Source: Bacteroidia bacterium (GTDB lineage Bacteria; Bacteroidota; Bacteroidia; J057). From it: a stretch of DNA of 64,000 nucleotides. Below, one piece after another: positions 3,577 to 63,695 of the stretch. Position 1 is the first letter of the stretch. Every line of letters begins with the position of its first letter. The stretch spans positions 1 through 64,000 of the forward strand of contig JALEFZ010000052.1 in the NCBI GenBank assembly GCA_022760475.1, in the 5' to 3' direction. The notes under the pieces were generated by a model. That model saw only the letters and a list, made by a program, of their open reading frames with translations. It had not been told where the DNA came from and did not search any database. A program made the translations under genes and the position numbers.

Positions 3577-4740
3577 TTACCAATTAGTCTCCTTCAAATC
3601 CTTCGAAATTATACACCCCAATCCCCTCAAATAAGTCTGAGTCTGCTCCAACGAATGATGCCTATTCTGCTTCATGATTGAGTACACATCTACTCCAGCA
3701 TCGTAGGCCTCTTTATTCCCGGTATGCTTCCAGGAATAGAGGGTGTAATGCCCATCATATATACCAAGTTCTTTTAGAAACTTTGTATGATACTCCGTAA
3801 ATCCTTTCCTGAGTTTCATTTTTGCTCCTGCCTGGAAGTCTGCTTTGTATGTACCGAATACATAATAGTTACCGGGATATTGATCCAGATTTAGCTTGGT
3901 GAGAATTTTCTTGAATGCGGGGTTTATCACAGCAATTCCACCACGCTTATTCTTCGAATTGTCCCCATAGACGGTAATGATACCTCTTTTAAGATCTATG
4001 TCTTGTACCTGGAGGCGACAAACTTCCACGGGACGTAAAAATCCATAATAGACAAATCGAGTAAACACATAAAGGTTATGGTGATTTTTCTTCAAGTACT
4101 TCTCTAAGGTCGATTTCACTTCATCTCGATAGGTGGTATGACGCCCGGATGTAGCTCTCAATTTTTTGATTTTGCCCAAAGGATTTTTGGTAATGATCTC
4201 CTTATCCATCAAAACAGTCATCAGAGCATTCAAGTAAGTTTGGTAATTATTTCGGGTAATAGCTGCCACTCCCCTTTCTTCCATCAACCAGGTAAATAGA
4301 TCAATACAATGGCCCTGGGAAAATTTTTCGACGGGTAGGCTCTTAATTTGCCTCAGCTCCAAAAACTCACCAAATACCCTCAGATAAGATTGATAATGTT
4401 CCTTGTTCCGGGCACCGCTGCTCGCCATTCTGATCTTGGTCGCTTGTCTAAGGGCTTCCCAAATACTCAATTTGGTCCCTACCTTTTGAATAGGTTCATC
4501 CAAAGCGAATCCTTTCTTCAAAAGGGTATCAACTTCCAACTGGATACGACGCAACTCGTTTAGGTTTTCCTTTCTGGAATTGTAAGCATGATTCACATAA
4601 ATCCTTTTCCTTTTCAGCTCTCCGGAGGAATGTTCGTAAGCGTAATACTCCAGGAAAAGTTTCTTGCCGGTAGACAATCGGCAGGGAATAAATGGCAGGC
4701 CATTTTCGGCTGTATATACCTTCTTGTTACTTTTTTTCAT
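3577..4740 (-). CDS. Tyrosine-type site-specific recombinase (integrase)
   Basis: A 387-residue phage-type integrase with an arm-binding N-terminus (about 1-90), a SAM-like core-binding domain (about 93-190) and a catalytic domain (about 200-380). Active-site positions are Arg236 (FLRPVEVCR), Tyr335-Ser-Trp-Lys338-His339 in place of the usual HxxRH, His361/362, and the nucleophile Tyr370 (QTYLRG). The Lys for Arg change also occurs in other Bacteroidota recombinases as far as I know, so it need not mean inactivity. Downstream on the same strand lie the SIR2 gene and the lysis-like block. Upstream lies a tRNA-like unit, which suggests it integrates at a tRNA-type site. Confidence 0.9.
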   Translation of the reverse strand: MKKSNKKVYTAENGLPFIPCRLSTGKKLFLEYYAYEHSSGELKRKRIYVNHAYNSRKENLNELRRIQLEVDTLLKKGFALDEPIQKVGTKLSIWEALRQATKIRMASSGARNKEHYQSYLRVFGEFLELRQIKSLPVEKFSQGHCIDLFTWLMEERGVAAITRNNYQTYLNALMTVLMDKEIITKNPLGKIKKLRATSGRHTTYRDEVKSTLEKYLKKNHHNLYVFTRFVYYGFLRPVEVCRLQVQDIDLKRGIITVYGDNSKNKRGGIAVINPAFKKILTKLNLDQYPGNYYVFGTYKADFQAGAKMKLRKGFTEYHTKFLKELGIYDGHYTLYSWKHTGNKEAYDAGVDVYSIMKQNRHHSLEQTQTYLRGLGCIISKDLKETNW

Positions 4741-52625: not shown

Positions 52626-53714
52626 TTATTCTTCAACCGCCACCTCCATCGTCATAAAATCCAGCGAGTCCTCTTTGACATAGTCATAGAGGCGTGTCCT
52701 GTTACCAGCTTTTTGAAGATACTGAATATCCTCCCTACTCAGGTTGGTGGCTGTCTTACCAATTTTAAAGCCTTCAAGGGTGGTTTCTGCAAAAAAGTAC
52801 CACTCTCCATCCCACATGAAGTTCATGTTGTTGCGCTTGGAAAACTTACCTGGTACCGCCACAAGGATATGCTGATCCATGTAAACTAATAGATAAGGCA
52901 GATCTAACTGCTCTAGCAAGGAAGCATAAAGCACCACTTTTCCACTACAATCGCTTTTTCGTCTGAGCAACACCTCATTGGGCTTAAAGAAAATCTCTTT
53001 ACCAGTAATGTACTCGTACTCAATCTCCTTACTGACAAAATCCAATAAGGCCTGGTATTGATTTTCCTGATTGCTTAAGTCCCCCACAATTTTTTGGGCG
53101 AAGTTGGTTAAACTACTTTCTCCTGATTTGGCTATCACTGCAGAGTGGTTCGCGATCCCATACCTTTGCCCATTCTCAACCAATTCGAAAATGGCCGGAG
53201 AATCATAAATGGCTTCTCGGTTATAATAGCGAGTCAATTCCTCCAGATTCAAATGATAGGTTCCTCGTTTATAATCAATGCTTAATGAATCATTTACTTG
53301 AGGCTTAAAAAGATGGGATGGAAATCGAAAAAGGGAGCTCTCCAATTTTCTGCTGCGGTATTTACCCAGATAAATAACTTCATCTATAACTTGTCCAAAC
53401 TCGATCTGCGAAGTATCCTCACAGATCAAGTCTAAATTTTCAAGTACTCCTGCGGTATCCTTGCTAAAATAAACCAGGGAATCCTCCATATCATACCTCA
53501 AAAACTTTGCTACAGGCGGAAGAACAAGTTCCTCAAACCCAATCCCCGTAAAGTCAGGAAAGGAAAGATAATTCAGCACAGCTTTCTGCAGGTCTGTGGT
53601 TTCAGGCCTGGCCATTTCCTCTTTTCTCTGCTTATTTCCCTCACAGTTCAAAAGAAAAAGTCCACATGCAAGGGCGAAAAGAAGAGATTTTGAATACTTG
53701 ACAACAACTCTCAT
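52626..53714 (-). CDS. Transglutaminase-like lipoprotein
   Basis: 362 residues with lipobox LLNC (Cys24). A transglutaminase-like core lies at about 220-315: Cys256 in RRKSDCSGKVVLYASLLEQL, His282 in MDQHILVAVPG, and Glu310 in WYFFAETT where Asp is usual. Such folds act as cysteine proteases or amide cross-linkers in the envelope. Its ATG overlaps the CHAT gene stop by 4 bases (ATGA), so the two are translated together. The Glu for Asp change may alter activity. The combination with a CHAT protease is unusual. Confidence 0.8.
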   Translation of the reverse strand: MRVVVKYSKSLLFALACGLFLLNCEGNKQRKEEMARPETTDLQKAVLNYLSFPDFTGIGFEELVLPPVAKFLRYDMEDSLVYFSKDTAGVLENLDLICEDTSQIEFGQVIDEVIYLGKYRSRKLESSLFRFPSHLFKPQVNDSLSIDYKRGTYHLNLEELTRYYNREAIYDSPAIFELVENGQRYGIANHSAVIAKSGESSLTNFAQKIVGDLSNQENQYQALLDFVSKEIEYEYITGKEIFFKPNEVLLRRKSDCSGKVVLYASLLEQLDLPYLLVYMDQHILVAVPGKFSKRNNMNFMWDGEWYFFAETTLEGFKIGKTATNLSREDIQYLQKAGNRTRLYDYVKEDSLDFMTMEVAVEE

Positions 53715-56569
53715 CCTGTTTGCTTAGATCCCAATTTATTCCTAAAAAATACAAAAGCGCCTAATAGAATAGGAAGCACTATTGCCAGAATAACATAGAT
53801 AGGCAAAAAAGGTTCCTTTTCATGCTTTTCACCTACCAGAACAAAGGCCGCCCAGTAAAAGGGATGCCCAAGATCTCTTTCCTCAAGATATGATTCTTTG
53901 GCCTTTTTGAGGGCAAGAGAGGCTGAATTGCCTTCCTTATAATACTCGAAGAACCTTTCCAATAATTGTGAAGTTGCTTTATCGTCGATTGACCAGAGTG
54001 TCATGAGGACTTCCTGGCAGCCTGCCTCTCGAAAATACCGGGCCATACTCAGGTTTCCTTCTCCTCTCTGATACTTTCCCAATGCGGTTTCGCAGGCAGA
54101 AAGTACCACCATCTCAGCCCCTAGAACAAGGTTGGAAACCTCGTAACCAAATAAGTCTTTCGCCCCCCCTTCCGTACCAAAGGCCAATTTGGAATACTGA
54201 GGTCTGTGTTCATCGATGTATCCATGCATCGCTAAATGCAAAATCCTTGCTTCAGGGGCATATTTAAGGAAACTGTCTTTAAGAGCCTCAGCCCCCAAAA
54301 AGCTATTTCCCCCCATGAGTTTACTGGCACTGGCTACCTCTTTTTTATTGTATTTCAATGTGTTTGGGCCATAACGTACGTCCAGCTTTTGCAGTACCTC
54401 ATTAGGCGCATAGCTTGGAGCAATTCCCAGGTAATTGGTACTAAAGTGATCTGATTTCTTGGTGGATTCCAGACCTTTGCCATAAGCATATTTGAATTCG
54501 GTTTTATACAATAAAAATGGCAATTCTGAATAATCGGAATAGCTCGATGGTTCATCCTCAATCAGACAAGAAAATGGCAGCCTGACCAGAGGACCGTCAG
54601 CCACAATTTCTACCTTCGGAGGCAGGTTTTCTCCTTGTGGACAAATTAAGCGGAACAATTTGGCCGAAGTATTGGCAAAGACTCCCTTTCCCTCCTGAGA
54701 AAAGGCAAATTCCTTTATCCATTGGGGGTTTCTGAGACAAGTCATGAAGGTATCTACGGCCTCTTCAATTTTCTCCACTTTGCCAATCTTTTGAGCCTCA
54801 ATTTTATCACGGGATACCCCAAATCGATAGACCTCATTCTTCCCCCAAAAATAATCCCAAATTACCTGATCTGGTTCGAGTTTAGTTTGAATTTGACCTG
54901 CTTTTATATCCAGGGAAGAAGACAATAACTGATTGAAATCGGGATTTCCTGCCCTCAAGCTATCCTGCCAGGCCCATAAAGTTTGCCTGACTTCAAGGAT
55001 TTTGGTTCGTAGTGAAGCAACTTTCTCAGGATCATCCTTCTCTGCAAGAATGAGCTCTTTTTGGAGCCTTGCCAGGCTTTGCTCTACCTCGGTTTCGATG
55101 AATAGCAGGTTTTGATTGGTTTTCTTGAAGCGAATAAGGATTCTTTTCATCAACTTTTCCTTCAAGGTGAATGCCTTCCCGGCATTAGAGAACTCATAGG
55201 CCTTCGCATTCCAAGTTTCATCTCCACTAAGGCTTTCCAATTCAAGACAAAGTTGGATAGACTCTTCTATGACTTCATGAAGATTTTCTCCCCAGAAATA
55301 TTTAGCAGACCTACTCTTTAGTTCCATCCGCAAGCTATCTATCGTTTGTAGGGCAACTTGATAGGTTTCATATGCCTGTATCAAATCTGTCTGATTTTGC
55401 CCCTGCTGAAACGACTGTTTCCAAGCGCGCGCAAGCCCCGTAAGTGTTTCGAAAAGAAAACGCCCATTTTCAAGGCTGGGGTTTCTGGGCAAATCGGTAT
55501 TTTCTTTTGGCTCATAATTGTCAATGAAAAACGAGAGGGCTTCCTGATAGGCTTCGATGGCCTTTCTACTTGATTGTCCTTGAGCAAGGAAACTACGGCC
55601 ACGCATTTGCCACAACCTTCCGATATAGCTCTTTCTTCCTGGGAAATTTTCGTAATAATGTCCCGCAGAATCCAAAACGCGATGGGAATTCTCCCACTCC
55701 TGCCTTGTCAGGTAGATTTCTCCCAAAAACCTGAAAGCCCTCCCTTTCTCCAATTCTCCTACTCCCTCGATAGAAAGGACTTTTTGAATAATCTCTTCTG
55801 CCTCTTGCAGATCTCCAAACTCAAGATAGGCACTGGCAAGATTCAAATAATCCCTGATTAGTCGGTCAGGTGAACTGAAAACCAACTTTCTACTTTCAAG
55901 GCTTTTATGATAATGAGATATGCTCAAGTCCTTTTTACCTTCCTCAAAATAGCTTTGTCCAATATTGGTGTAAATGGAAGCTTTGAGGTTCAGGAGGGCT
56001 CGATCCTTGGATTTCAACAGAATTTCCTCAAGGATATCTAGGGCATATCTGTAATTGACACGGGCCTCCTTATAATCCCCTACTTGGGCCAAAATCACCC
56101 CTCTGTTGACCAAGGCAGAAATGTTGATGTTGTCTTTTTCTTTCTTTGGGAAACTGTTTTTAACCCTTTGAATGACTCGCTGATAATAAAGGTCGGCCTT
56201 ATAGAGTTCTCCGATTTGCCGATAGGCATTTCCCAGGATGATCATCAATTCCAGCACATCGGGATGGTTCTCCTTGAAGAAGGGCAACATCTGCTTTTCG
56301 TAGGGAAGAAATTCTGTCAGTTTTCGTCGTACGCTCCAGGCATAGGCAATGTCCTGATAAGCAATGAGTACAACCTCTATGCTATCTGCTTCCCCAGCTT
56401 CTTGGGCAATCCTTTCAGCCAAATGGATGGCCTCATCAAACTTGTTCTCATCGTCCAGCAATTCTTCAACTATTTCGAGCCTTTGTCTAAAACTTTCCTG
56501 TGCCAAAGAGTTCAAAGAAGGTATTAGCAACAACAGCAGACAAACAAAACGAAGAATTTGAACAAGCAT
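53711..56569 (-). CDS. TPR-CHAT domain protease, secreted and membrane-anchored
   Basis: 952 residues from ATG 56569; the longer frame starts at a TTG. A signal peptide is followed by about ten TPR-type repeats (about 30-440), then a helical linker. The CHAT caspase-fold domain runs about 570-905 with His782 (ILHLAMHGY) and Cys826 (VVLSACETALG). A C-terminal TM segment (about 920-938) precedes a basic tail. It is thus a periplasmic protease tethered to a membrane. CHAT proteases are activated by bound partners and cleave specific proteins. Related ECF/TPR/CHAT sets are common in Bacteroidota, but the target is unknown. Confidence 0.9.
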   Translation of the reverse strand: MLVQILRFVCLLLLLIPSLNSLAQESFRQRLEIVEELLDDENKFDEAIHLAERIAQEAGEADSIEVVLIAYQDIAYAWSVRRKLTEFLPYEKQMLPFFKENHPDVLELMIILGNAYRQIGELYKADLYYQRVIQRVKNSFPKKEKDNINISALVNRGVILAQVGDYKEARVNYRYALDILEEILLKSKDRALLNLKASIYTNIGQSYFEEGKKDLSISHYHKSLESRKLVFSSPDRLIRDYLNLASAYLEFGDLQEAEEIIQKVLSIEGVGELEKGRAFRFLGEIYLTRQEWENSHRVLDSAGHYYENFPGRKSYIGRLWQMRGRSFLAQGQSSRKAIEAYQEALSFFIDNYEPKENTDLPRNPSLENGRFLFETLTGLARAWKQSFQQGQNQTDLIQAYETYQVALQTIDSLRMELKSRSAKYFWGENLHEVIEESIQLCLELESLSGDETWNAKAYEFSNAGKAFTLKEKLMKRILIRFKKTNQNLLFIETEVEQSLARLQKELILAEKDDPEKVASLRTKILEVRQTLWAWQDSLRAGNPDFNQLLSSSLDIKAGQIQTKLEPDQVIWDYFWGKNEVYRFGVSRDKIEAQKIGKVEKIEEAVDTFMTCLRNPQWIKEFAFSQEGKGVFANTSAKLFRLICPQGENLPPKVEIVADGPLVRLPFSCLIEDEPSSYSDYSELPFLLYKTEFKYAYGKGLESTKKSDHFSTNYLGIAPSYAPNEVLQKLDVRYGPNTLKYNKKEVASASKLMGGNSFLGAEALKDSFLKYAPEARILHLAMHGYIDEHRPQYSKLAFGTEGGAKDLFGYEVSNLVLGAEMVVLSACETALGKYQRGEGNLSMARYFREAGCQEVLMTLWSIDDKATSQLLERFFEYYKEGNSASLALKKAKESYLEERDLGHPFYWAAFVLVGEKHEKEPFLPIYVILAIVLPILLGAFVFFRNKLGSKQTG

Positions 56570-56663
56570 GGGGAGGTTTTTCCACAAGATAAATAAAGGG
56601 AGGGAGACTTATGTCCTTACAGACAAAAAGCCTCCCTGAAAAATAACCCCATTTGCATAAAAC

Positions 56664-57653
56664 CTACAGCCTGTACGGGTATTGGACAGAAAGCCTACTC
56701 CCACATACAGAATACAGGATGCTATATTTTTTGCTGGAATGATAGAAACCTTTTACAGTTCCATTCCACCTGGAATTGCATGCCCACCTACTCTTATTCT
56801 TAGACTTAAAATTTCTTGGCGATAGCTTCACCACTCTCCCATTTTTCAATTTCAGTTCCATCGCACTTACTAGCATTTGGGACCCTCTTTTCTGGATGGT
56901 TGCGTACACCTTAGTGCCAGACTTTGCATCTGTGTAAAGCAGTTTTTTTCCACTAGAAAGTTGGGTAGTCCTGTAAGCCTTGAATACTGTTTTGGTATTG
57001 GCCAATGTAGAGGAATTTGGCTTCCCTGTATTGATAGGCTTGTTGGGCTTGGCACTTATATTCGTAGGTCCTTCCTCACAATTCGGTTTTCTGAAACATC
57101 TCTTTTCATTTTTTGGAACCTTTCTCTGAACATAGAACTTGTAGTGTCCAAAGATTTTCCGATAGCTGGCAGGACTGGCAAGGGTTTGTCCAGGTCTAGA
57201 TCTACCTTTGGACGACACCGGCTCTTTCACCTTGACGATGAAGTTATGAGGTCGGTCGGTTGAATACGGAACATTGGTTGTTTTAAAGGTAATGGAAAAC
57301 ACCCGGGCAGTATTTTTAAAGACAACCATACTTCCAGCCCGCTTAGCTTTCAAAACACCAGATACCCAAACCTGCTTGTTATTTTTGTCAAATGCGTAGA
57401 CTTTTACCTCAATGTTATTTGTCTGTACAAAATTACTTGGGTTTAGCCCTCCATACCATCCTCCAAATTCAAGTTCTATTTCTTCTCCCTTCTTGATGAC
57501 ATCATTGCATACATAACATTGACCTGGTGGATCATTGATGTTGTCCAACTGTTGGACAAGGGTAACTTTTTTCTTGGCAAATGCATCCGGCATAAAAAGC
57601 ATCATGCCCCCCAGACACATTATAGTTAGCAATAAGTTTTGAAGCTTAATCAT
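56664..57653 (-). CDS. Secreted basic protein, unknown function
   Basis: 329 residues with a signal peptide (about 1-26, ending DAFAKKK). An N-terminal beta domain has two Cys (PGQCYVCNDVIKKG) and GGWYGGLNPSNF. A Lys/Asn/Pro-rich linker follows (about 200-225). The C-terminal module runs KLLYTDAKSGTKVYATIQKR ... RWACNSRWNGTVKGFYHSSK. It is very basic overall. It lies upstream of the CHAT gene on the same strand and divergent from the ECF sigma gene, so it may belong to the same regulon. Confidence 0.65.
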   Translation of the reverse strand: MIKLQNLLLTIMCLGGMMLFMPDAFAKKKVTLVQQLDNINDPPGQCYVCNDVIKKGEEIELEFGGWYGGLNPSNFVQTNNIEVKVYAFDKNNKQVWVSGVLKAKRAGSMVVFKNTARVFSITFKTTNVPYSTDRPHNFIVKVKEPVSSKGRSRPGQTLASPASYRKIFGHYKFYVQRKVPKNEKRCFRKPNCEEGPTNISAKPNKPINTGKPNSSTLANTKTVFKAYRTTQLSSGKKLLYTDAKSGTKVYATIQKRGSQMLVSAMELKLKNGRVVKLSPRNFKSKNKSRWACNSRWNGTVKGFYHSSKKYSILYSVCGSRLSVQYPYRL

Positions 57654-57797: not shown

Positions 57798-58355
57798 ATG
57801 CAGGATGAAGTCTTCATAAAGCAGCTCATAGCGGGAGGCGGAAAGGCGGAAAAAGCCATTCAGACCTTTTTCAAGCTCCATAAGGGCATGATTGGTAAGG
57901 CTATTAAGCAACATCAACTCTCCGAGGAGGAATGCCTTGATGCCTACACAGATGCCATTATTTCTTTAAGGAGACAAGTTATCGAAGGAGTTTTTCGCGG
58001 GGAAAGCAAGATATCCACCTACTTTTACACCATTTTTTATCGTCGATGTGTTGATTTGATTCGAAAGAAGTCGACTCAAAAGGAAAGGCTTACAGAAGAA
58101 TATCCTGACCTAGCTGATGACAAGCCCATCGCATCGGATCGTATGCAAATCCAGGAGGCCTTCGAGGGATTGATGCAGTACATGGAGCAACTCAGTCAGC
58201 AATGCAAGGATATCCTTATGTACAGGTATTATTGGGGATATGAGGACATGGCGGAAATAGCCAGCAAACTGGGCATAAAAAACGCAAATACTGCCGGCAG
58301 TTTGCGCTATCGGTGCATGCAGCGACTCATGAACCTGCTGGCTAAGGGGAATTAA
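57798..58355 (+). CDS. ECF-type RNA polymerase sigma factor
   Basis: 185 residues. Region 2 is LDAYTDAIISLRRQVIEGVF and STYFYTIFYRRCVDLIRKK (about 48-93). Region 4 is LSQQCKDILMYRYYWGYEDM ... GSLRYRCMQRLMNLL (about 133-182) with a HTH. It starts a plus-strand run divergent from the secreted protein/CHAT/TGL genes. The TPR membrane protein directly downstream is the likely anti-sigma factor. It may control the divergent genes. Confidence 0.88.
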   Translation: MQDEVFIKQLIAGGGKAEKAIQTFFKLHKGMIGKAIKQHQLSEEECLDAYTDAIISLRRQVIEGVFRGESKISTYFYTIFYRRCVDLIRKKSTQKERLTEEYPDLADDKPIASDRMQIQEAFEGLMQYMEQLSQQCKDILMYRYYWGYEDMAEIASKLGIKNANTAGSLRYRCMQRLMNLLAKGN

Positions 58356-58366
58356 AATTGGGGAAC

Positions 58367-59101
58367 ATGGAAATACTAGAAGAAGATATAGCGCGTATTG
58401 AGGCCTATCTCCAGGAGGAACTGAGCCTGGAAGATGCCAGGGAGCAGGTCGTAGCGTTTGATGCGAAGTTGGCTACCTACGAACAGTCAAGGTTGGCCAT
58501 TAACGCATGGTCTGAACAACAGTTAAAAGAGCAGCTAAAAAAAAGTTATGAGCCTGCAACTGTAATACCTTTTTGGGCAAATAGACGTTTTCAGCTTATG
58601 GCCATAGCAGCAGGGATAGCTTTGCTTCTGGGGATTTTCCTTTGGCCCAAAGGCTCATCCAGTAGCTTCAGTACAGAGGAATACCTTGCTCAAAACTATA
58701 AAAAACCAGAATCGCCACTGTCTAATGTAAGAGGAGATAATCTCTTAGATTCCCTGCGCACCCTGGCGCATACCTACTATGAGTCAGGGAGATACGAAGC
58801 CTGCATTTCTACTGTAAATGAACTCAATAAGGTCTCGGACATAGGTGATGACAATGAGGTTCTGGCCCTTCTGGGCTACACCTACATGGAAACTAAAAAA
58901 TGGCCATTGGCAGAAACTTATTTGCTGCAAGTCAGTCCCTCCTACCCCGAGTATAACAAAGTTCAATGGAACCTGGTGCTGGTCTTTCTGAGACTCGAAG
59001 AGCTTGAGCTGGCCAAAGAGACCTTGGTTTTTCTCCAGGCCAAAAGCAAGGAATACAAAAACAAGGCGAGTGATTTATTGGATGAGTTACCCAAAGAGTA
59101 A
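58367..59101 (+). CDS. Membrane TPR protein, putative anti-sigma factor
   Basis: 244 residues from ATG 58367; a TTG at 58358 is an alternative. A cytoplasmic acidic helical region (about 1-65) is followed by one TM segment (about 80-97, LMAIAAGIALLLGIFLW). The periplasmic part has TPR-like helices (about 125-240: LRTLAHTYYESGRYEACIST, VLALLGYTYMETKKWPLAET). Gene order sigma then one-TM protein is typical for ECF/anti-sigma pairs, and the TPRs could sense the partner CHAT protein. It overlaps the thpR start by one base. Confidence 0.75.
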   Translation: MEILEEDIARIEAYLQEELSLEDAREQVVAFDAKLATYEQSRLAINAWSEQQLKEQLKKSYEPATVIPFWANRRFQLMAIAAGIALLLGIFLWPKGSSSSFSTEEYLAQNYKKPESPLSNVRGDNLLDSLRTLAHTYYESGRYEACISTVNELNKVSDIGDDNEVLALLGYTYMETKKWPLAETYLLQVSPSYPEYNKVQWNLVLVFLRLEELELAKETLVFLQAKSKEYKNKASDLLDELPKE

Positions 59102-61862: not shown

Positions 61863-63695
61863 ATGAAACAGCCTATCCAACTTTTAATTTTTTGCTGTCT
61901 GCTTGGGCAAGTCGTGCTAGGGCAGACCAACTTCTTCATTGCTCAAAGTAAGTATAGTGGCAAGCTTAGAATTTATTCCTCGGATGATGAGGCCAGACCC
62001 AAAATAATGACAGAGGAGTCCTATTGGGGATATGGATGGACTGACCTGGATATCTTTCAGACCATTCAAAGAAAAGATGGCAAGCAAAATCAAAGAATTT
62101 TCGTTGCTGCAGCGAAGTATGAAGGAGGACGCATAAAAATCCAACGAATCAATAGAAATGGAACCCTAGGAAGTACCAATTATCGTGAAAATGAAAAGGG
62201 ATTCAACCATGTAGAAATATTAAGGGGGCGAAGCTCTTCTCCACTGATATTCATGGCCAGAAACAAAACAAAGTCCAAAGAAGGGATATTTGAGTTATGG
62301 TCAGTAAATAAGGAAACAGGTGCACCAAGTAAAAAAATTGATCAGGATAAATTTGGTGCTTATACCCATGTTAGTTCTTACAAAGCAGGTCGAAATTACT
62401 ACTTGATGGCTTATCATTATGGAACGGGTAAGTTTGCCAGGTACCGACTTGGCAGCAAAGGAGGCTTAACCAAAATCAAAGTTGGGGTATGGCAAAAGGG
62501 ATGGACATCCTTGAGTTTTTTTGAATCCAAGGGCGTAAACTTTGTCATTTGCATGAATAAGGCAACTTCGGAGCATCAGATCATGGCCTTAAAAGCTGAT
62601 GGTTCTTTCGGAAAGAGCAAATTCCCAGGTGATGGTAAACGTAAGTTTAGCCTAGGTAAGGATGGAATAACTCCTGGTTGGAGTATCGTAGAACCTTACA
62701 GGAGTATTGCAGGCTCTAAGAATAAGCTATTTTTTTACAACGAAAGAAACAGAAAAACAGGATCAAAGAGTGTGTTGGATAACGGTTCTGGCGGGAACCT
62801 GGGTAGTAGTACCAATATAAGAACATGGTCAAAAGGCTGGACAAGCATTGAGTTTTTTCGAATAAATAAAGCCAGAAGTCTTAAGAAAAAAACTTGCTGT
62901 CCTCAAGCCAACCCTTCTCGAAAAGCACAAGCCAAAAAGGAAGCCGCACTGATGTTATTTTATACCGATGATAAGCCTACCTGGGAAATCGCACAACGGA
63001 TAGGTGTGGCAGAAGAACTTATGACCAAAAATTACAGTAAGTCTGTTTTACTGACCAACAAAAAGAGCCTTTCTTCCTTAGTAAAACCCAGTGTAAAAAA
63101 GTCTGCCAGCGTTTCGAACTTCTTTTTCTGGCTAAAAAAACTCGCTGCGGAAGGATATTATATAGACATTTATCTGATTGGGCATGGTGGACATGGGGGC
63201 TTTGAAGCACAAGGAGGTACGATTAGTTCTCAATCCATTATTGATGAGTTGGGACCTGTCTATGGTAAGGGGAAATTTCCTATTCGGATGGTTTATCAAA
63301 ACAATTGCTGGGGTTCTCACCTCAATCAAGCCTTCATTGATGTAGGTGCAAAATCAGTCATGGGCAGCCGCTATGTAAACTTTTTCATTTACAAATTCAA
63401 TCCCTTCATGGAAGCCTGGACTTCAGGAAGCTCGTTCAGGCAATCTATAGACAAGGCTAGTATCAATTTTCATGACAATGCCATCCGAAATTGGGTACTT
63501 CATCAAAAGAATGTCACGGTAGCTCAAAAAGGCTATAGTGAAACTACTTGGTACCGAAAAAAGTGGGGTTTATATAAGGCAGAGTACAATGAATACAAAT
63601 TTTATAATTCCAAGTCCCATCCCATCGATTGGAGTTCCCACATCATAGTTCAGGGAGACCGAAACCTGCGGAAGAACTCCAAACCTAGTTGGTAA
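61863..63695 (+). CDS. Secreted six-repeat propeller fused to a caspase-fold (clan CD) peptidase-like domain
   Basis: The start is set at ATG 61863, giving a signal peptide (about 1-21) and 610 residues. Six repeats spaced 46-60 residues apart have a Gly-Trp-Thr-x-hydrophobic core (GYGWTDLDIFQ, KGFNHVEILRG, GAYTHVSSYKA, QKGWTSLSFFE, TPGWSIVEPYR, SKGWTSIEFFR) and suggest a six-bladed propeller. The C-terminal domain (about 358-545) has YLIGHGGHGGFEA (His441 or His444) and RMVYQNNCWGSHLNQA (Cys482). This is the strand-HG and strand-xC layout of clan CD peptidases. The catalytic call is inferred. No known architecture was recognised. Confidence 0.75.
   Translation: MKQPIQLLIFCCLLGQVVLGQTNFFIAQSKYSGKLRIYSSDDEARPKIMTEESYWGYGWTDLDIFQTIQRKDGKQNQRIFVAAAKYEGGRIKIQRINRNGTLGSTNYRENEKGFNHVEILRGRSSSPLIFMARNKTKSKEGIFELWSVNKETGAPSKKIDQDKFGAYTHVSSYKAGRNYYLMAYHYGTGKFARYRLGSKGGLTKIKVGVWQKGWTSLSFFESKGVNFVICMNKATSEHQIMALKADGSFGKSKFPGDGKRKFSLGKDGITPGWSIVEPYRSIAGSKNKLFFYNERNRKTGSKSVLDNGSGGNLGSSTNIRTWSKGWTSIEFFRINKARSLKKKTCCPQANPSRKAQAKKEAALMLFYTDDKPTWEIAQRIGVAEELMTKNYSKSVLLTNKKSLSSLVKPSVKKSASVSNFFFWLKKLAAEGYYIDIYLIGHGGHGGFEAQGGTISSQSIIDELGPVYGKGKFPIRMVYQNNCWGSHLNQAFIDVGAKSVMGSRYVNFFIYKFNPFMEAWTSGSSFRQSIDKASINFHDNAIRNWVLHQKNVTVAQKGYSETTWYRKKWGLYKAEYNEYKFYNSKSHPIDWSSHIIVQGDRNLRKNSKPSW

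Follow-up and report, generated by a model that had tools for sequence, protein, structure and literature searches.

What would a protein do that appears to carry a repeat-built propeller and a caspase-like domain on one exported chain? The question is raised by an ORF in a 64,000 nt stretch from a Bacteroidia bacterium (the whole stretch analysed, hereafter the window). An earlier note, made from the sequence alone, had described the ORF as a propeller fused to a caspase-fold domain, and both folds are now supported by models and structural matches.

Layout of the protein and its propeller

The ORF was found at 61863-63695 on the plus strand and encodes 610 aa. An in-frame ATG further upstream (61800) would extend the product to 631 aa; a typical signal peptide starts at 61863. 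The protein is laid out as follows:

61863..61922, plus strand: likely Sec signal peptide, residues 1-20 (MKQPIQLLIFCCLLGQVVLG), read from the translation
61923..62882, plus strand: predicted six-bladed beta-propeller, residues about 21-340 (blade profile, AF2 model, Foldseek, VIA)
62883..62933, plus strand: Lys/Arg-rich linker, residues about 341-357, with Cys345-Cys346 (sequence)
62934..63692, plus strand: predicted clan CD (caspase/legumain fold) peptidase-like domain, residues about 358-610 (AF2, Foldseek, VIA, invariant residues)

Reading of the sequence revealed no lipobox in residues 1-20 and no recognisable T9SS C-terminal signal in the 610-aa protein, and beyond the signal peptide no further membrane helix is apparent in the chain. 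The protein is predicted to be exported. The basic linker might, as a guess, be a site of processing, self-processing or activation; the first 12 residues of the C-terminal domain model are unstructured.

Repeats in the N-terminal half were evident from short motifs, with GW[TS] occurring four times (at 58, 213, 272 and 325; 0.14 expected from composition shuffles) and W..GWT three times (0.001 expected). A blade profile of 48 positions, built solely from three relatives of the propeller (L014, L015 and L017), scored 60.8 bits on this half, compared to 12.7 for the best of 500 shuffles and -8.8 for the reversed sequence. Five matches were obtained (55-104, 168-203, 209-251, 270-311 and 321-337), and the remaining degenerate blade, at about 113-160, was placed by eye and with the AF2 model. 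The match at 321-337 covers only the first strand of its blade, the other strands being supplied by residues 22-46, with which the C-terminal strand 325-333 pairs. Five whole blades and this composite one therefore add up to six, with the usual ring closure. The count of six repeats in the earlier note thus holds for the blades, while its GW-T-x-F motif does not hold throughout, since two degenerate blades lack GW and four carry GW[TS].

AlphaFold2 modelling of residues 20-346 with five relatives gave strands only (pLDDT 66, pTM 0.64), with low confidence for the last blade. The model matched solved propellers both in Foldseek (LGI1 EPTP, E 2e-8) and in VIA (Z 17-20), among them a putative isomerase from E. 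coli (1ri6, Z 19.9) and a PLL lectin (Z 18.6). Some of the matched propellers we take to be seven-bladed, so the fold search cannot fix the blade number, which is set by the sequence count. The predicted structure is a ring of four-stranded blades as expected of a beta-propeller, six in number according to sequence and model strands. No solved relatives were found by sequence search. Pfam hits of PF13661 and PF10282 to the propeller scored far under cut-off and were discarded, and protein A constructs that came up in the profile search of solved structures are helical and were regarded as chance matches.

Fold, candidate catalytic residues and relatives of the C-terminal domain

The HG and NCWG layout reported in the earlier note is present at residues 441-442 and 481-484, respectively. 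The AF2 model of the domain reached a mean pLDDT of 56 and a pTM of 0.64, with values of 67-89 in most blocks of ten residues between 11 and 120 and residues 528-610 poorly modelled. It shows the strand-helix order of clan CD: HG is followed by a short hairpin, and the Cys comes behind the next strand. In Foldseek the best match was a SAVED-CHAT protein (E 1e-4), and PIG-K (1.6e-3), caspase-4 (6e-3) and prolegumain (9e-3) were also among the best hits. VIA ranked legumains highest (Z 13.3 over 185 residues, rmsd 3.7). The structure check proposed in the earlier note thus returned a clan CD fold rather than a non-peptidase one: the model has the alpha-beta arrangement of caspases and haemoglobinases, albeit at modest confidence.

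By sequence, relatives of this domain are few. Genome searches yielded four. L011-L013 belong to a single genus, stand alone, look exported and lack a propeller (28-31% identity, E down to 2e-23). The fourth, L018, is a distant protein of 278 aa that a single-sequence search picked up at E 0.002. Across these five sequences, which represent three families with overall identity down to 21%, H441, G442, C482, G484 and D370 are invariant, and all five show the His (in HG) and Cys after adjacent strands that characterise a clan CD dyad. Position 444, which is His here, is occupied by T, T, T and E in the four relatives. Of the residues singled out earlier (Cys482 and a His441/His444 pair), His444 is thus not conserved, which leaves His441 alone as the catalytic candidate, and with Cys482 it forms a candidate catalytic dyad. 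Loss of Cys or His in homologues, which the earlier note had named as a refutation, was seen in none of the four relatives for this pair. Asp370 sits in the loop following the first strand and could, by analogy with legumain Asn42, be a third residue, perhaps orienting His441; the Asn42 position is occupied by Asp in gingipain K (PMC9604545). His441 and Cys482 are 41 residues apart, as are His148 and Cys189 of legumain (PMC9604545), and the spacing is 46-49 in the relatives.

The whole protein, the C-terminal domain alone and all relatives gave no match to the Pfam families of C13, C14, CHAT, C11 and C25 peptidases, and the C-terminal domain matched no Pfam, NCBIfam, PHROGs or PADLOC family. 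A profile comparison with Peptidase_C14 domains of the same genome reached only P 0.019, with HG in register. Searches with profile A1 added no other convincing relative from 244 genomes of the class of L011, 247 genomes at phylum level, 86 of the family of L018 or 277 of the class of the window. The earlier note did not recognise the architecture, and indeed the combination of propeller and clan CD domain was not found elsewhere among the genomes sampled; full-protein relatives were likewise absent from plasmids (one weak propeller match), phages, viral contigs and two genome-contig scans. Five weak genome matches were set aside: a frame with stops (L019), a signal peptide peptidase SppA-like protein (L020), a 45-residue alignment (L027), a short match within an 818-aa frame (L028) and a WD40/TolB-like protein (L041).

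Occurrence of the same propeller type with other domains

The six-bladed propeller type was also found fused to other domains, as in the following two proteins:

L014, 490-2283: propeller fusion with a possibly papain-like (C39-like?) domain
L017, 1189-2889: propeller fusion with a possibly papain-like (C39-like?) domain

The N-terminal domain of both has a Cys (GCG), GSHW and NNSS layout and weak C39 likeness (E 0.19), which hints at a papain-like fold. A different partner was seen in L015, L016 and L036, which carry HEIGHASGLAH (HExxHxxGxxH) and match M66 below threshold (E 0.001); one plasmid relative of this metzincin-like domain is annotated as M66 metalloprotease. In these three (L015 at 1198-2028) the domain is followed by six near-identical blades of ~48 residues each, which suggests recent repeat amplification or gene conversion. 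Stand-alone versions of the propeller occur in Burkholderia (L023) and Xenorhabdus (L042). The former, at 3605-4531 on a Burkholderia pyrrocinia plasmid, lies near R-body genes and adjoins genes for a metallophosphoesterase and a ferritin-like protein.

The propeller gives the impression of a part that is reused together with proteases, and its presence beside papain-like and M66-like domains argues for a general targeting role rather than that of a dedicated inhibitor. That a single propeller type recurs with three protease-like folds points to a targeting module that is portable. We tentatively raise the possibility, which we rate somewhat below even, of a new exported clan CD protease family together with an uncatalogued six-bladed propeller that serves as a common targeting head on caspase-like, papain-like and metzincin-like folds. 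Caspases, legumain and gingipains all belong to clan CD, and a divergent exported family with a propeller would add a case of aiming such an enzyme outside the cell.

Proposed function and comparison with known systems

The tool results support the two folds, which were predicted and compared with solved structures, as well as the conserved His-Cys pair and the fusion. Regarding function, we consider it probable, from models and sequence, that the single gene encodes an exported clan CD cysteine endopeptidase with a His441-Cys482 dyad that is aimed by its propeller. The protein would leave the cytoplasm, the propeller would bind a target there (a surface glycan or protein, or the substrate) and hold the protease at it, and the clan CD domain would cut proteins on site via the dyad, perhaps with Asp370 orienting the His. 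Export, proteolytic activity, substrate and the binding role of the propeller with its ligand are inferred.

The propeller could instead be a prodomain or inhibitor that covers the active site until the basic linker (341-357) is cut and the protease released. The Lys/Arg-rich character of the linker would fit, as several enzymes of clan CD cleave behind Arg and require the removal of a flanking region (PMC4357240). The protease domain does not need the propeller for folding or general control, however, as the close relatives L011-L013 manage without one, and the same kind of propeller is seen beside protease folds of unrelated types; we regard a prodomain as unlikely. Rather unlikely, too, is an inactive or non-proteolytic clan CD domain, acting as a scaffold or as a transamidase or ligase in the manner of PIG-K and plant legumain ligases. 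In favour of this, the top structural matches include PIG-K and peptide-ligase legumains, and the residue after the Cys is Trp/Tyr in this family, a position that is acidic in legumain and in most caspases. Yet both catalytic residues are invariant across very divergent relatives, and a scaffold would not need them.

The surroundings of the gene bear on a further reading, a cell-death or defence module formed with a nearby CHAT gene, which the earlier note had placed close by:

53711..56587, minus strand: TPR-CHAT protein, probably unrelated (Pfam CHAT E 1.3e-41, several TPR)

Its product contains both motifs, AMHG for the His and SACETALG for the Cys, and has a membrane segment at its C-terminus. 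Two clan CD genes inside 10 kb, as pointed out in the earlier note, would speak for such a module, but this is weak evidence because the genome holds 17 CHAT and 11 Peptidase_C14 matches; about 0.08 such genes would be expected by chance within 10 kb, and with 28 in the genome one chance neighbour is unremarkable. Moreover, the two genes lie 5.3 kb apart on opposite strands with several unrelated genes between them, the propeller-protease protein has no PADLOC match, and the relatives sit in unrelated neighbourhoods. The proximity is probably coincidental, a joint module is highly improbable, and a function shared with the CHAT neighbour was dropped for lack of support. Upstream, about 86 bases away and in the same orientation, lies a glucuronate isomerase-like gene, and downstream a methyltransferase-like gene on the other strand; together they suggest no system around 61863-63695. 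Beside the TPR-CHAT gene, 56664-57653 (minus strand) encodes an exported-looking 329-aa protein without Pfam match. Divergent from these two, 57798-59101 (plus strand) contains a gene resembling a sigma factor and, after it, one for a membrane TPR protein, which together look like a sigma/anti-sigma pair adjoining the CHAT gene.

Returning to the putative propeller-aimed protease, legumain (family C13, clan CD) is among its closest known counterparts, with which it shares the fold (VIA Z 13.3), HG, the Cys after the next strand, the His-Cys spacing of 41 and, by prediction, export. In contrast to legumain, identity is about 11%, there is no Pfam C13 match, no C-terminal prodomain was recognised and a propeller is present at the N-terminus. 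CHAT proteases (SAVED-CHAT 8tl0; PF12770) provide the best Foldseek match (E 1e-4) and the same His-Cys layout; the CHAT profile does not match here, however, and the known ones reside in the cytoplasm under the control of SAVED or TPR parts, whereas this protein is apparently exported with a propeller. Photorhabdus-type PLL lectins (5c9l), which are seven-bladed, and other solved propellers share the propeller fold (Z about 18.6), but not recognisable sequence, and sugar binding by the propeller described here is putative.

Fusions of caspase-like domains with WD40 propellers are known in bacteria, WD40 being the commonest partner of prokaryotic metacaspases (PMC3501461, PMC7475262), and toxin systems include exported proteins with a caspase-like domain at the C-terminus (PMC3482391). 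The metacaspase/orthocaspase-WD40 fusions (PF00656 + WD40) likewise join a caspase fold to a beta-propeller; here, in contrast, neither profile matches, and the propeller is N-terminal, of another repeat type and on one chain with a signal peptide. What is new are the families of both halves and the predicted exported, single-chain form.
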